From: Bacteroidota bacterium | Lineage (GTDB): Bacteria > Bacteroidota > Bacteroidia > NS11-12g > UBA955 | Direction: 5' to 3' | Length of the DNA stretch: 49,299 bases | NCBI GenBank assembly: GCA_027490055.1 | Contig: JAIXYV010000003.1 | Location: 1 to 49,299, forward strand | Shown here: positions 36,603 to 44,638 of the stretch, piece after piece | How the letters are laid out: each line of letters opens with the position of its first letter | Numbering within the stretch: position 1 is the stretch's first letter | Translations under genes and position numbers: made by a program | Notes under the pieces: model-generated | What the model was told of the DNA's origin: nothing | Databases searched by the model: none | The model's input: only the letters and a program-made list of their open reading frames with translations

Positions 36603-38633
36603 ATGAAGTATATTCTTAGTTTACTTATCATCGGTACTGCACTTTCTGCCTCTGCTCAGAAAGTCGACTGGCAACTACAGGTTGATCAGGAACAAAACCG
36701 TATTGATATTATGGATGGCGATCTGGATGGAAAAGTAGTAGTGGGCAACGATAAACAATCTGCCCTGGCTACCGATATCTACTTTACCAAAGTGGATAGA
36801 ATTCAGTCGACAATCCGCTCAATGGAAGCTTCGAAAAGTATCTTATATGCCCGTGCACTTTTTGAATACCTCCGCAAAATTGAAAAATACCAGATCGTTC
36901 ACCTCTCTTCGCAAATGCGCTCTATGGAGCTGGCCGAAACCCTGGTAGATTCTAAATCGGAATCCAAGGAACTTGAAATACTAAAAAACGATCTTAAAAC
37001 CGGACTATCAGTGTCTGATTTTATCAATCTGAAACCTTACTCTAAAAACTTCTGGGTATACGCAGCTGGCTTCTATCCGACCGATGTTCTAAACATCTTC
37101 AGAAACCTGGCTTATACGCCTCTCGGAAACGATGTTATGCTGGCACTCGCCCGTATCGATCCGGGTGCTATCAAACAGTATTTCGGAACGAATCACATCA
37201 TCGACAGGGCCATTAAAAACTCTAAAGATTCTATCGCGATTCTCTTGTATACCATCTACAGACAATATGGTACCCAATCTAAAGCATTTGCCTTACTTGA
37301 GCTTATTACTAAAGATAAAATGAGTCTCGAAAAGGCTGAAACCATTTCTAAAAATCCTGTTCAGTTTTATAAAACGTTAATCGAACTGCGCAAACGTCCG
37401 AATATCCTGGCCGATTACACTGTAGAAAAAGAACTGGAAATGATGAGCATGGAAAAGGTGGTAGAAATTAACCTGCGTCACGAGGAAAAAGATACCGTCA
37501 GATTTGAACCTATTCAAAGCAATAATGCCGTCGAAATTTATACCTCTATTGTCTATTGTCAGCAAGAAATATTTACCTCTTCTTTCCTGGGCATGTACAA
37601 GCGAATGATGGCCAAACGCAAGGATAAATCTGGCTATGCCTTTCTCAAATCTGTTAACTTTAACCGCTTCCGTATTTTCCTTAAACAATGTGCTGGTTAT
37701 AATAAACTGGATGATTTCTTTGCGACCATGAATGATTCTCAATCTAATGCCCTAATTAGTCAGTTTGCAGGTGGTTTATATAACTATGGCGGCAACCTTT
37801 CTCCGGCAGTAGATGTAGCTGATACCTACGGCAGTCTGGAAAACGAAAAGATCAAATGGATCTTCACCGCTACCATTGAAAAAGAACTTCGCAAATGTAT
37901 TCTCAGCAACAACGAACACGGAATTAAAATTTATGGCTTGCTTTTAAAACTGACTGGTGGCACACCTGAAACTTTTAACACCTCGTATAATTTCACCATC
38001 CCCAATATTGATAGAATTTCGAGTGCCGAACTATTTCCAGACAGCCTACACGTTCAACAACATTTCTTCTTCGATGATGAAGACGGTGAGGCGGCCTTTA
38101 ACTCGTGGCTGAACCTCTACCCTGCCAGTATTTACAAGAAAGAAGATAAAGGCACTTATGTGGTGTTTAAAACCATCAAAGGCAAAAAGATGGAAATCTA
38201 CGCCAATAAACCACATGATGAAATCGAAGGCAGAAAAGCCCTCACAGCTTATTTCGAAAAAGTTAATCGTTTCCCTGATTTAATCGTTCACCGCGGTCAT
38301 AGTTACTATATAGACAACACACTTGACAATATGACTAATAGCAATAAAGTGGCTATACTTGGCAGCTGTGGCGGCTATCAGAACATCAGCAAGGCGATGG
38401 AAAATGCGTATGATGTACAAATTATCAGTACCAAACAAGTAGGTACTATGGCTGTTAACACCGTATTAATTCAGGAAATTACCGAAACCATCCGCGCAGG
38501 TAAAGACTTAATCTGGCCAGATGTCTGGAAACAAATCAGCATTAAACTGAAAAATAACCCTCAGTTTAAAGACTATATTCCGCCCTACAAAAACTTAGGT
38601 GCCCGCTTTATTAAAGCTTACAATGAACTCTAG
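36603..38633 (+). CDS. Secreted protein with putative clan-CD cysteine-peptidase-like C-terminus
   Basis: 676 residues with a signal peptide ('MKYILSLLIIGTALSASAQ'). The first ~480 residues are helix-rich with no domain I can name. Near the C-terminus, strand-plus-motif 'LIVHRGHSYY' (His563, Gly565, His566) and 'KVAILGSCGGYQN' (Cys589) are 23 residues apart (His566 to Cys589). This is the order and spacing of the GH(G/S)...(G)C pair of clan-CD peptidases such as separase, clostripain and gingipains. Conserved-looking 'IISTKQVGTMAVNTVL' follows. I know no characterised member; homologues appear to be annotated hypothetical in Bacteroidota. Activity is inferred, not shown. The last 23 nt overlap the 3' end of the convergent gene. 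The 207 nt upstream of it hold no further gene. Confidence 0.75.
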   Translation: MKYILSLLIIGTALSASAQKVDWQLQVDQEQNRIDIMDGDLDGKVVVGNDKQSALATDIYFTKVDRIQSTIRSMEASKSILYARALFEYLRKIEKYQIVHLSSQMRSMELAETLVDSKSESKELEILKNDLKTGLSVSDFINLKPYSKNFWVYAAGFYPTDVLNIFRNLAYTPLGNDVMLALARIDPGAIKQYFGTNHIIDRAIKNSKDSIAILLYTIYRQYGTQSKAFALLELITKDKMSLEKAETISKNPVQFYKTLIELRKRPNILADYTVEKELEMMSMEKVVEINLRHEEKDTVRFEPIQSNNAVEIYTSIVYCQQEIFTSSFLGMYKRMMAKRKDKSGYAFLKSVNFNRFRIFLKQCAGYNKLDDFFATMNDSQSNALISQFAGGLYNYGGNLSPAVDVADTYGSLENEKIKWIFTATIEKELRKCILSNNEHGIKIYGLLLKLTGGTPETFNTSYNFTIPNIDRISSAELFPDSLHVQQHFFFDDEDGEAAFNSWLNLYPASIYKKEDKGTYVVFKTIKGKKMEIYANKPHDEIEGRKALTAYFEKVNRFPDLIVHRGHSYYIDNTLDNMTNSNKVAILGSCGGYQNISKAMENAYDVQIISTKQVGTMAVNTVLIQEITETIRAGKDLIWPDVWKQISIKLKNNPQFKDYIPPYKNLGARFIKAYNEL

Positions 38634-39400: not shown

Positions 39401-42400
39401 TTATCGCAATAGCGTAAATGTCCCCTTCAACTGATAGGTCTTATTGTCGGCACCCAAGGCTTCTATCTGATACATGTATACATCCTGCATACAACGTTCG
39501 CCCTTGTACTCGCCATTCCAGCCCGCTAAACACTCATTAGAATCAAATACCTTCTCGCCCCAACGGTTGAAAATCTCAATATGATACCTCGAAATATACT
39601 GCCCCTTTCCTCCGAAACTTTCGTTGATCTCGTTGCGGTCGGGACTAAAGGCATTGGGTACAAATAAAGTTGAATGTGGCAATACTTTAACCTCATTAGA
39701 TAAACTGTTAGCTACTGCACTAAATTGATTATGCCACAAACTCACTGCTCTTACTCTGTAAATGTAATCTGGCGTACAAGTACTCTCTGCACTCTGATCA
39801 ACAAAACTGTTGATAGTAGCACCTACCTGGCCTATAACTTTAAAACTGCCATCTGCCTGCCTGCGCTCTATCTCGTAATAGTTGATGCCCTGATCCCACT
39901 GCCTGTAATGGTTCCAACTTATAGCAGGTTTCTGGGTCGGCTGATCAAAATAGCCCTTTAGTAAAATGGTCTGTGACAGATTACTCCATGGTGTGGTGTC
40001 GTTACAATTGTCTATTCCACGCATTAAATAGTAATAACTGTAATCGTTGACTTTAACCTGTTGGTCGCTCAAAATCGTATCTCTCGCTTCAAAATATTTG
40101 TTCTGAAACATCTTCCTTCCATCGGTAAAATACTTATCGACCAAATACCCTTTTATGCCATGTTTACTCCAGGCATTGTTACGCCATTCCAACAAGGCAT
40201 AATCATTGTTTTCAATGGTCGCTCTCCAGGCGTAATTCGGTGTAGTGGTATTAAGATAGTATGGCTTTCCTAAAGCTGTATCACTGAATGAAAATTCGTT
40301 GAATCCACCTTTCTGAATGGCTTTGATCTTGTAATACTGCCTGGTGTAACAGGTAAAATGGGTGTCTGTATACTGTAAAACATCGCCAGCTACACTATCG
40401 AGTAACTTATAATTTCTGTTCGACTCGCCATCAGCGCGCCAAATCTCATACCTGGCAATTGTGTCAAAACCAATGTATGGCGACCAGCGAACTTCGTTGG
40501 CTTCTAATACGCCCTTAGCATTTGTTTCTACTGTACAATGCGGTGGCGATATCAAAAGATCTGAACTAAGCAGACATAGATTTTTTGTGCGAATTTTATA
40601 ACAATACGACTGATTAAGTGTGTTCACCTGATTGTCTACAAAAACAGTGTCCTCTGCTTTGGTAATCTCTGCAAATTTGACAAAACCATTCTTATCAGAT
40701 TTATAGATGCTGTAACTCGTAAAATCAAAATCAGGATACTTCGAAAATACAAGCTCTGTCTTATAATCATTGATTACCGAAGCTCTGCGAATGGGCACTG
40801 GTAATGGCGATATAGTATCACCAATTACTGCAATATTTGGTTTTACGATGGTGTCCTCGCAATGCATAGCATCTTTAGTAATTAAACTAACAGTATAAGT
40901 TCCTGCTTTGTTGTATTGATGCGTGACATCTTTGCCCTGATGCCTGGTGCCATCGCCTAAATCCCACTCGTATGCAATGATACCGGTATCAGAATCAGTG
41001 GCATTAAGTATACTTAATGGCATGCCTAAACAGGTGTGTTTATCTCTGATTGAAAAATCGCTGACCGGAGCAAATATCCGAATAGTTTTATCCGCCGTAT
41101 CCTTACAAGTGCCTTTGTTCTCGACAATGAGTCGCACAGTTTGATAACCTCTCTGTGCAGGCATATACATAGAATCTTTACCTGGTGATTTGATAGAACC
41201 ATTGAAATACCAGGTCGATTTTAAGGCAGGATCCTCGTGCTTACTGAATGATGTATTGCTCACTTTGATGGGTTGATGATAACATAAACCATCTGTCAAA
41301 ATCTCTGCTTTTGGATAATCGTAGACATAAATAGTATCAATAGGTGGTAAAGTATATTTACAACCTAAAGTATCACTTAAAATCATGGCCGGAATATACC
41401 TGCCAGCTTGTTTGTAAATATGCCTGAAGCCATTGCCCTGCCTAACCACTCCGTCACCTAAATCCCACTCCATAGTTGCCGAATCTAATGACTTGCCTCT
41501 GAACTGAACTGCATGTGGTAAACAACTATTCCCTCTATCAAAATCATAAGTCCCTCTCGGACCATTTACAATGACATAACCTGGTTTTTTAATAGTGGCT
41601 GTGCAGCCATTCTTACTGGTTACTTTCAAACTTATATCATATGATCCTGGCACCAAATACAATTTCTGAGGATTGGGCAGTTTAGAACTGCTTCCATCAC
41701 CAAAATCCCACTCCCAGTCGACTATACTCGCACTGAACGACTTCGACATATCTTCGAACTTACACTGAAGCGGTGGACAAAAACGCCCCGTAGGATCGGC
41801 CTTAAACTGAGGTTGCAACATGTTTGGTGACACCTCAAAACTATCGGTATATTCAGTCTTACAATTGTCACGATCTTTCACCGTCAACACAAAATAGTTC
41901 ATCCCCATTTGCTTGAATTTTCCGTCGAAATTCTGGGAATTTACTTTTAATCCAGAACTCATCTTCCATTCATAACTCACAGGAAATTTAGTGTAACTGC
42001 TATCGATATATGACTTAAAATAAAATACTGGTGTGTCGCAAATGGCAAAGCGCTGCACTTTGTAGGTAGCTACCGGACCAGCATAAGGCAAAATATATTC
42101 TTTAACGGATGTGCAACCCGACGAACTTTGCACTTTATGCTCTATTCGTATCACACTGTCACCTGCTGGTATCGAACTCACCGTTATCTGTGTCAATAGC
42201 GATTTAGCTTCGATGGTATTCCCGTTTACTTTCCATGTGTGATAATGGTTATCACTACCTGCTGCCGAGTCATATAAATTAATATTGACGGGCGAACATT
42301 TTCCGGTACTTACAACACTCGAGCGCAATTGAACACCCGATACATTCACCGTTACTTCGTTTGTGTCCGGACAATTTGTAGAATCGTAAGTGCCTACCAG

Positions 42401-44638
42401 CAATATCTTATACGAACCAGAATTGTTGAAAGTATAACTGGTTCGGGCCACAAGACTGCTGTCTCCATTGGGCAATAACCATTTATATTTTTTCATATCA
42501 CCACTGGCCTTTAAAATGCCTCTTGCAGGCGCACAATTCTGATTGAGGGTCACCGATGCTTCAACATGATAAGGCGTTGGCAAAGGCCTGTTAGGTATTC
42601 TTACTGAATCAAAACATCCGAAAGTGTCATTCCATCCCTTAAATACAAAATAGTTGGGCTCGAACTTACTGTAGATTCTGCCCTGATTAAATGGCAATTT
42701 CATGGTGTCGTCTTTGCTGAAATCGTAACGGTTGCCCCAACTATAAGATGGTGTCATGGCAATCTTGTCAAGTTTACAACTAACTATCATCCATTCAACG
42801 CCAACATAAGGACCATGTGCATACACCGTATCTGTCATCTCCGACTCTGTTTCACATCCGAAATGCTGGGCAGTCATTTTTATCAGATGAATGCCTCCAC
42901 GACGTGTCACCAATATTGAATCATAACTAACATACGACCAGGTATCGGCTTCAAATAAGGGCTCTGTTTTTAATGAAAATCTAACTTTCTTTTTAATCGA
43001 ATCTGCAGTGGTATTGATGAATCGCAATGTATCTGTTCCACAAACATCATATTGTGTTAATTGAAATGTCGGTACATAACGATTCCCCACCGATATCAAA
43101 GCAGTGTCTTTAACTTCACATCCCTGGTAGGTTTTAATCACGACAATAGCCAGGAAATTACCAGCCTTTTCAAAATGTTTGTTCACTTGTGGACCATTGT
43201 ATGTGCGCATCGAATCACCAAAGGTCCATGTAACAGACTGAATTGGCTGTACAATGTTTTTATTGTAATTGTATAGTTTGGTTACGGGTAAACACTCATA
43301 AAACTTTTCGGGTTGTATGTCTACCCACTGCTGTGCAACCTGTATGCGCTCTGTTAGCCCAATCTCTGCAACGCAACCAAAAGAATTGCTGACTTTGGTT
43401 TTGACTGCATAGGCGCCTTTATTCTGATATGTGTGAGTTATCGGACTGCCAGCCGCAAAACTCCGAGGATTGGTCTTATCACCAAAATCCCAAATGCTGC
43501 CGCTGTAATTACTCCCAACAATATTAAAAATCGCTTTAAAAGGTGCCTTACAACCTATCGAGTCCTGAACACTGATGCGAACATCTGGCACCGGATTTAC
43601 AGTTACCTGCTGCGTCATCGAATCAGAACATGTGCCATTACTGACACTCAATTTAACTGTATATTTTCCTTGTGACGAATACGTGTGCCTGGGCTGACGG
43701 GCGGTATCTGAATTACCATCGCCAAAATCCCAACGGTACTTTATCGCTTTGTTATTGGGTGTTGTAGAATTTTTAAACTGATAGGCGCTGCCTTCACAAA
43801 CCGGACCGTCAATGCCGAATCTGGAAACAAGTTTTTCAATGATCAAAGGCTGAAATAGTGCCGTATCGCTGCACCCACCTGAACTAGCGACCAGTTTGAG
43901 GTTGTATGAACCAAATGAACTTATGGAAGTAGTATAATTGAAAGATGTCGCTGTATTGCCATCAGAACAAATCCATTTGTAAGTGTTAGTGCCTGTCGTA
44001 GTATTAGTCGCACTAAAATTACCAGGCAACTGACAACTATAATTATTGCCTACCTTGAAACTGGCCGTGGGTGCTGGTTTTATTCGTATATAATTACTTT
44101 TGTTGAGTAACGATTTACATCCGTTGGCATCGGTTACTGTTAGTCCGACACTAAATCGCGAACTATAGGTATACGGATGCCTGTCTGTACTGCCCGATCC
44201 AAGGTTGCCATCTCCAAAATCCCAGGTCCATTTAACCAATACTGTATCCGCTTTTATTGACTGATCTGTGAATAAAACATTGTCCCCGATACAGGCAACA
44301 GTGTCTGCTGAAAAACGCGCTGTTGGATTCGAAAAAACTCTGATAGGGGTAAAGGTCTTTACCGACTTATTACCCGATCCATCTGTCACCGTTAAAGTGA
44401 CTTTAAAACTACCGCTCTGATAATAAATAGCTGATGGATTTTTGAGTGTCGACTTGTTGCCATTGCCAAAATCCCACGAATACTGTAATGAACTGCCAGT
44501 ACTCTTATCTGTAAATCCTATGGTTAAAGGCACACAGCCCCTCGTGGTTGAGAGCGTAAAATCTGCTATAGGCGTTGCCATCACTCCCATTAGGGAATAA
44601 AACACACACAATAACAATATTTTTTTAATGCTATTCAC
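39401..44638 (-). CDS. Giant PKD-repeat surface protein with T9SS type B (CHU_C) sorting domain
   Basis: 1745 residues with a signal peptide ('IKKILLLCVFYSLMGVMATPI'). The body is a chain of PKD/Ig-like modules. At least eight have the PKD core: 'WDFGNGNKS', 'WDFGDGNLGS', 'WDFGDGNSD', 'WDFGDKTNP', 'WTFGDSMRT', 'WDFGDGSSSK', 'WDLGDGVVRQ' and 'WDLGDGTRHQ'. From about residue 1290 to 1660 there are fibronectin-III-like modules ('YEIWRADGES', 'YEIERRQADGS'). The last ~85 residues ('LFVPNAFSPDRNEINESF' to the C-terminal 'LKGTFTLLR') are the gliding-motility-associated type B sorting domain. It is likely a long surface adhesin or matrix protein delivered by T9SS. A TATATTTG box (44664-44671) lies 25 nt upstream. 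It sits directly downstream of a GT-C glycosyltransferase gene. Confidence 0.9.
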   Translation of the reverse strand: MNSIKKILLLCVFYSLMGVMATPIADFTLSTTRGCVPLTIGFTDKSTGSSLQYSWDFGNGNKSTLKNPSAIYYQSGSFKVTLTVTDGSGNKSVKTFTPIRVFSNPTARFSADTVACIGDNVLFTDQSIKADTVLVKWTWDFGDGNLGSGSTDRHPYTYSSRFSVGLTVTDANGCKSLLNKSNYIRIKPAPTASFKVGNNYSCQLPGNFSATNTTTGTNTYKWICSDGNTATSFNYTTSISSFGSYNLKLVASSGGCSDTALFQPLIIEKLVSRFGIDGPVCEGSAYQFKNSTTPNNKAIKYRWDFGDGNSDTARQPRHTYSSQGKYTVKLSVSNGTCSDSMTQQVTVNPVPDVRISVQDSIGCKAPFKAIFNIVGSNYSGSIWDFGDKTNPRSFAAGSPITHTYQNKGAYAVKTKVSNSFGCVAEIGLTERIQVAQQWVDIQPEKFYECLPVTKLYNYNKNIVQPIQSVTWTFGDSMRTYNGPQVNKHFEKAGNFLAIVVIKTYQGCEVKDTALISVGNRYVPTFQLTQYDVCGTDTLRFINTTADSIKKKVRFSLKTEPLFEADTWSYVSYDSILVTRRGGIHLIKMTAQHFGCETESEMTDTVYAHGPYVGVEWMIVSCKLDKIAMTPSYSWGNRYDFSKDDTMKLPFNQGRIYSKFEPNYFVFKGWNDTFGCFDSVRIPNRPLPTPYHVEASVTLNQNCAPARGILKASGDMKKYKWLLPNGDSSLVARTSYTFNNSGSYKILLVGTYDSTNCPDTNEVTVNVSGVQLRSSVVSTGKCSPVNINLYDSAAGSDNHYHTWKVNGNTIEAKSLLTQITVSSIPAGDSVIRIEHKVQSSSGCTSVKEYILPYAGPVATYKVQRFAICDTPVFYFKSYIDSSYTKFPVSYEWKMSSGLKVNSQNFDGKFKQMGMNYFVLTVKDRDNCKTEYTDSFEVSPNMLQPQFKADPTGRFCPPLQCKFEDMSKSFSASIVDWEWDFGDGSSSKLPNPQKLYLVPGSYDISLKVTSKNGCTATIKKPGYVIVNGPRGTYDFDRGNSCLPHAVQFRGKSLDSATMEWDLGDGVVRQGNGFRHIYKQAGRYIPAMILSDTLGCKYTLPPIDTIYVYDYPKAEILTDGLCYHQPIKVSNTSFSKHEDPALKSTWYFNGSIKSPGKDSMYMPAQRGYQTVRLIVENKGTCKDTADKTIRIFAPVSDFSIRDKHTCLGMPLSILNATDSDTGIIAYEWDLGDGTRHQGKDVTHQYNKAGTYTVSLITKDAMHCEDTIVKPNIAVIGDTISPLPVPIRRASVINDYKTELVFSKYPDFDFTSYSIYKSDKNGFVKFAEITKAEDTVFVDNQVNTLNQSYCYKIRTKNLCLLSSDLLISPPHCTVETNAKGVLEANEVRWSPYIGFDTIARYEIWRADGESNRNYKLLDSVAGDVLQYTDTHFTCYTRQYYKIKAIQKGGFNEFSFSDTALGKPYYLNTTTPNYAWRATIENNDYALLEWRNNAWSKHGIKGYLVDKYFTDGRKMFQNKYFEARDTILSDQQVKVNDYSYYYLMRGIDNCNDTTPWSNLSQTILLKGYFDQPTQKPAISWNHYRQWDQGINYYEIERRQADGSFKVIGQVGATINSFVDQSAESTCTPDYIYRVRAVSLWHNQFSAVANSLSNEVKVLPHSTLFVPNAFSPDRNEINESFGGKGQYISRYHIEIFNRWGEKVFDSNECLAGWNGEYKGERCMQDVYMYQIEALGADNKTYQLKGTFTLLR

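Follow-up and report, generated by a model that had tools for sequence, protein, structure and literature searches.

A conserved His-Cys domain with clan-CD-like features marks a candidate new protein family in Bacteroidota

The window, that is, the whole stretch of 49,299 nucleotides analysed here, contains an open reading frame of 676 codons plus stop on its forward strand (P0001, 36603..38633), and the genome of the window carries one copy of it. Homologues without internal stops recur across the family and the order of the window and in a second order, which indicates that the frame is a real gene. In most loci of the window's order, a TrmH-type methyltransferase gene precedes the gene and MutS is divergent, and no conserved partner beyond housekeeping genes was found in loci of this order. 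The names of neighbouring genes were assigned by reading their sequences. The stable TrmH/MutS setting suggests that the gene is chromosomal and stable and does not belong to a mobile element. Most loci of family f37 (L237-L248) contain genes of a PhoB-like response regulator and a PhoR-like kinase, lying divergently upstream of the gene, and in f37 loci ATP synthase genes are often found downstream. In several loci of family f129, a 226-aa PhoB-like regulator is encoded just upstream. In the window, positions 39401-44638 encode a 1745-aa protein with PKD-like repeats and the C-terminal end FVPNAFSPDRNEINE...RWGEKVFDS, which by its sequence resembles a type IX secreted gliding-type protein.

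The product of the 676-aa gene reads as an exported protein. A probable signal peptide comprising residues 1-18 (MKYILSLLIIGTALSASA, 36603..36656, forward strand) was recognised by eye, with the cut predicted after ASA and before QK, and residues 11-18 have low pLDDT in the structural model. A crude hydrophobicity rule for signal peptides was passed by 66 of 74 family members versus 266 of 508 neighbouring ORFs. The full-length AlphaFold2 model, for which 33 sequences of the window and the loci served as input (mean pLDDT 89.5, pTM 0.85), predicts that residues 20-470 (36660..38012, forward strand) form an all-helical, solenoid-like N-terminal region with pLDDT mostly 85-97 and about 28 helices across residues 23-450. 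The best-conserved part of this region, as seen in the alignments, is located at residues 290-330 (37470..37592, forward strand). It includes R300, T325 and S326, present in 74/74 homologues, and G330 (73/74), with the distant Azospirillum sequences counted, as well as N290 and H293, which are invariant in the 64 Bacteroidota rows.

The C-terminal residues 480-676 (38040..38630, forward strand) are predicted to form a caspase-like alpha/beta domain; the model of residues 465-676 alone reached a pLDDT of 91.4 and a pTM of 0.89. The predicted order begins with strand beta1 (483-488), after which the motif DDEDG (residues 491-495, 38073..38087, forward strand) places the acids D492 and D494 where helix 1 (493-503) begins, and continues with a three-strand meander within 511-535 and a helix at 537-554. 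The next strand, 560-563, runs into HRGHS (residues 563-567, 38289..38303, forward strand; His566 at 38298-38300) and is followed by a helix at 567-575, and strand 583-586 precedes GSCGG (residues 587-591, 38361..38375, forward strand; Cys589 at 38367-38369). Each of these two strands ends three residues before H566 or C589. A helix at 592-601 leads to strand 606-610, in and after which lies the block ISTKQVGTMAVN (residues 607-619, 38421..38459, forward strand), and a helix at 616-631 is followed by a family-specific tail (residues 638-666, 38514..38600, forward strand) with W638, W642, Y658, P661 and N664.

The alignment of 74 homologues demonstrated the invariance of D492, D494, H563, R564, G565, H566, S567, G587, C589, G590, N619, W638, W642, Y658 and P661, while G614 is kept in 73/74 sequences and N664 in 72/74. 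The motif HRGHS and the cysteine were found in 74/74 sequences, the cysteine also in every later row. H566 and C589 are 23 residues apart in 74/74, and G565, directly before His566, is kept in 74/74. The exceptions to the dyad that later sampling revealed are three pseudo-like ones, H566L or H566Y, in long tandem copies described below. The preliminary description had noticed VHRGHSYY, ILGSCGGYQN and the conserved-looking IISTKQVGTMAVN at this place (the H563 codon opens at 38289 and the N619 codon closes at 38459), the strand before each dyad residue, the spacing of 23, the signal peptide and the helical N-terminal region, and all of these have been borne out, the signal peptide as a probable one; the alignment of homologues that it proposed for His566 and Cys589 gave the invariance reported here.

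Homologues free of internal stops were found in 32/70 genomes of the window's family and 64/108 genomes of its order, and the domain profile matched 128/299 genomes of the second order, which belongs to the same class. An even draw over the phylum gave the gene in 15/395 genomes, nearly all from the second order; a match in G432 with one stop (E 6e-4) was set aside. None of the sampled genomes of genera g6, g9, g13 and g14, which belong to the window's family (f1), many of them nearly complete, contains the gene, and its absence from the four genera suggests lineage-specific loss. No homologue was found in the viral contigs or phage records searched. The tblastn search of plasmid records revealed four Azospirillum family members annotated as hypothetical, in which the domain is identical to that of the window protein at 51-59 of 211 positions (24-28%), the dyad is kept and Q612 is replaced by Asn. 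In the Azospirillum plasmid members L141 (3744-5639), L142 (3630-5654) and L143 (3438-5654), the helical part retains its RF/TSS motif and the dyad is kept as well, and in L141 transposase genes adjoin the family gene.

The core of clan-CD enzymes was defined as a parallel sheet of strand order 2-1-3-4 with helices 1-3; there are six strands altogether, and one of them is antiparallel. When strand 530-535 is taken as strand 2, the succession of predicted elements fits this order. In clan-CD enzymes, the catalytic His and Cys sit just past the adjacent strands H-beta3 and H-beta4 (PMC4357240), and Gly precedes the catalytic His (PMC12445089). The predicted element order and the motif positions point to a caspase-like fold, and it is likely, judging by the model, that the domain belongs to clan CD. 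Meanwhile, the Foldseek search against the PDB with the full-length and domain models gave no clan-CD structure among the 50 matches listed for each, so the caspase-like fold proposed in the preliminary description agrees with the order of elements and lacks a counterpart among these matches. The proposed likeness in spacing has the same two sides: the order of His followed by Cys is that of clan CD, but 23 residues is short compared with 42 in caspase-7 (His144/Cys186) and 46 in PmC11 (His133/Cys179) (PMC4357240). The exact match offered by His221/Cys244 of RgpB in one review was taken as a misprint for His211, the loop glycines being at 210 and 212, and was not used.

As had been expected in the preliminary description, no described family matches the protein: searches of Pfam, NCBIfam, PADLOC, PHROGs and PDB sequences gave no significant match. 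In particular, no profile of C11, C14, C25 or CHAT (Pfam, NCBIfam) and none of C50 separase or C13 legumain (Pfam) matched it. Matches of one member to DUF2666 (E 8e-4) and of L107 only to a PHROG phosphoribosyltransferase (E 2e-4) were treated as chance. In a profile-profile comparison with hhalign, a low-power test that used C14, C25 and CHAT alignments drawn from related genomes, the scores were 14.8, 16.0 and 22.3, respectively, versus 21.5 for the reversed-sequence control. The alignment to C25 had both catalytic motifs in register with a probability of 0.21%, which is not significant. The test has little power because C14-CHAT was the one known clan-CD pair that scored, and C14 versus C25 failed. 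Genome G000 has three matches to C25 (PorU/gingipain-type) and none to C11, C14 or CHAT.

Separase (C50) is similar to the family in having a long helical N-terminal region, thought to consist of ARM/HEAT repeats, followed by a C-terminal caspase-like domain in which His and Cys are conserved (PMC4626109), but it is eukaryotic, intracellular and much larger, and gave no match among PDB sequences. Gingipain R and PorU (C25) are likewise exported Bacteroidota cysteine peptidases, belonging to clan CD, and in RgpB an Asp of helix 1 binds P1 Arg (PMC4357240); unlike them, the family has neither a PF01364 match nor the C25 prodomain or C-terminal secretion domain. Metacaspases and orthocaspases (C14, PF00656) share the His-Cys dyad and the Gly before His, and their pseudo-variants carry Tyr for His (PMC6426788); the Arg/Lys specificity of C14B metacaspases resembles the specificity guessed here. 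However, PF00656 does not match the protein, and C14, which occurs in 21/59 related genomes, is absent from the window genome. Clostripain (C11) is bacterial and exported and has the same order of a His-Gly and then a Cys motif, but PF03415 matched neither the protein nor any of the 59 related genomes. The specific kinship to separase or clostripain suggested in the preliminary description was not upheld, as neither sequence nor profile searches linked the protein significantly to any clan-CD family. The protein is a representative of a candidate new family whose features resemble those of clan CD, and not a separase or a clostripain; the original observation is stronger than first stated in conservation and weaker in named kinship.

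Among the matching genomes of the second order, most of those in families f129, f139, f140, f124 and f131 carry two matches each. At 17 loci (L273-L285, L287-L289 and L292), picked where pairs were expected, so that 17 is not a frequency, a long copy is located directly upstream of a short copy on the same strand. The long copies comprise about 830-1155 aa by ORF call and their short partners about 670-810 aa, with gaps of up to 8 nt, short overlaps included; one overlap, of 185 nt, is probably due to the choice of start codon. A quick tree grouped 16/17 long copies together (SH-aLRT 92), which is consistent with one old duplication, though not firm evidence of it. Two f139 long copies (L284, L287) read HRGLS (H566L) and one f131 long copy (L288) reads HRGYS (H566Y), Cys being kept in all three, and their short partners read HRGHS. 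Within this motif only H566 was lost, while H563 and R564 stay, which fits H566 as the catalytic histidine. In pseudo-orthocaspases, Tyr replaces the catalytic His (PMC6426788). The tandem pairing and the loss of exactly this histidine from the long copy are new findings of the present study. The longer paralogue encoded directly upstream in some relatives, which in some cases has lost the histidine, hints that an active and a regulatory subunit form a complex.

On balance, the protein is probably a cysteine peptidase that is exported, probably to the periplasm, belongs to a family not described so far and works like clan-CD enzymes, and this reading is favoured with some reserve. Such a peptidase would be exported by the Sec pathway and then cleaved by signal peptidase I. 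Cys589 would attack the peptide bond with His566 as the general acid/base, and NH groups of the main chain close to G565 and C589 may provide the oxyanion site. The 607-619 block would take the position of the clan-CD substrate loop L5 and, with the candidate acids D492 and/or D494, may form the S1 pocket, which would most likely accept Arg or Lys. The candidate role of the acids follows the analogy with Asp163 of gingipain R, which is located on H-alpha1 and binds P1 Arg (PMC4357240), and the Arg/Lys specificity is a guess by analogy. The helical N-terminal region may hold or present the substrate or restrain the enzyme in a separase-like arrangement. In some relatives, the active short protein and the His-less long one, as a regulatory subunit, may form a complex.

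It is unlikely that the same domain and Cys/His dyad serve another reaction, as in an amidase, a transpeptidase or some other Cys hydrolase or acyltransferase whose substrate is in the cell envelope. The dyad and the fold-like order leave the reaction unfixed, the predicted export points to the envelope, and we know of no invariant tail of the W638/W642/Y658 type in clan CD, but the described clan-CD families with such a dyad order are site-specific endopeptidases (PMC12445089). An improbable reading is also that of a scaffold or binding protein, in which the dyad is kept for structure or ligand binding and has no catalytic function. The persistence of the H566L and H566Y long copies with Cys kept and the large helical part are in line with it, while the strict retention of H566 and C589 over great distance in all single-copy members read argues against it.

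The resemblance of ILGSCGGYQ to LGICGGYQ, the nucleophile elbow of CobB/CobQ, makes a class I glutamine amidotransferase-like domain conceivable, and weak Pfam GATase_3 (PF07685) matches, limited to the LGxCGGYQ elbow, were obtained for 14/33 members (best E 0.0034), as well as an hhalign probability of 28.6% over 14 columns. However, the match of the window protein covers 45 residues and scores 16.4 bits against the curated cut-off of 27. The invariant His lies upstream of C589, and no invariant His or Glu past C589 that could complete the amidotransferase Cys-His-Glu triad was found among the 74 homologues; the family also differs from CobB/CobQ in its helical front and predicted export. This very improbable reading is largely refuted. 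The Foldseek ranking (best PDB matches of the domain to small GTPases, E 7.5e-5, TM 0.30-0.39; MglA, Arl1 and Rab at the top, and GTPases also among viral-model matches) would make the domain small-GTPase-like, which is hardly credible and in practice refuted, since a pattern search found neither the P-loop GxxxxGK[ST] nor NKxD in the domain, so that the matches were rejected as homology, the TM of the PDB matches is below 0.5, and the core of small GTPases and the caspase core have an order of the same kind, a likeness that can explain the matches. Small GTPases dominated the Foldseek matches of the full-length model as well. Among viral models, A0A1P8DJ94 was matched at TM 0.50 and RMSD 4.5.

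The reading as an exported clan-CD-like cysteine peptidase can be extended tentatively: it is possible, if doubtful, that this is a solenoid-caspase family which in one order includes an operon-encoded pair of enzyme and pseudo-enzyme with a logic like that of caspase-8/cFLIP, controlled by a nearby PhoB-type two-component regulator and directed at envelope proteins. If the protein is a peptidase, the caspase clan gains a family with a separase-like layout in bacteria, and its conservation in more than one Bacteroidota order beside housekeeping genes makes a basic task in the envelope likely. In that case, the tandem pair with its His-less member would provide a tractable bacterial model of pseudo-protease control over caspase-like enzymes.
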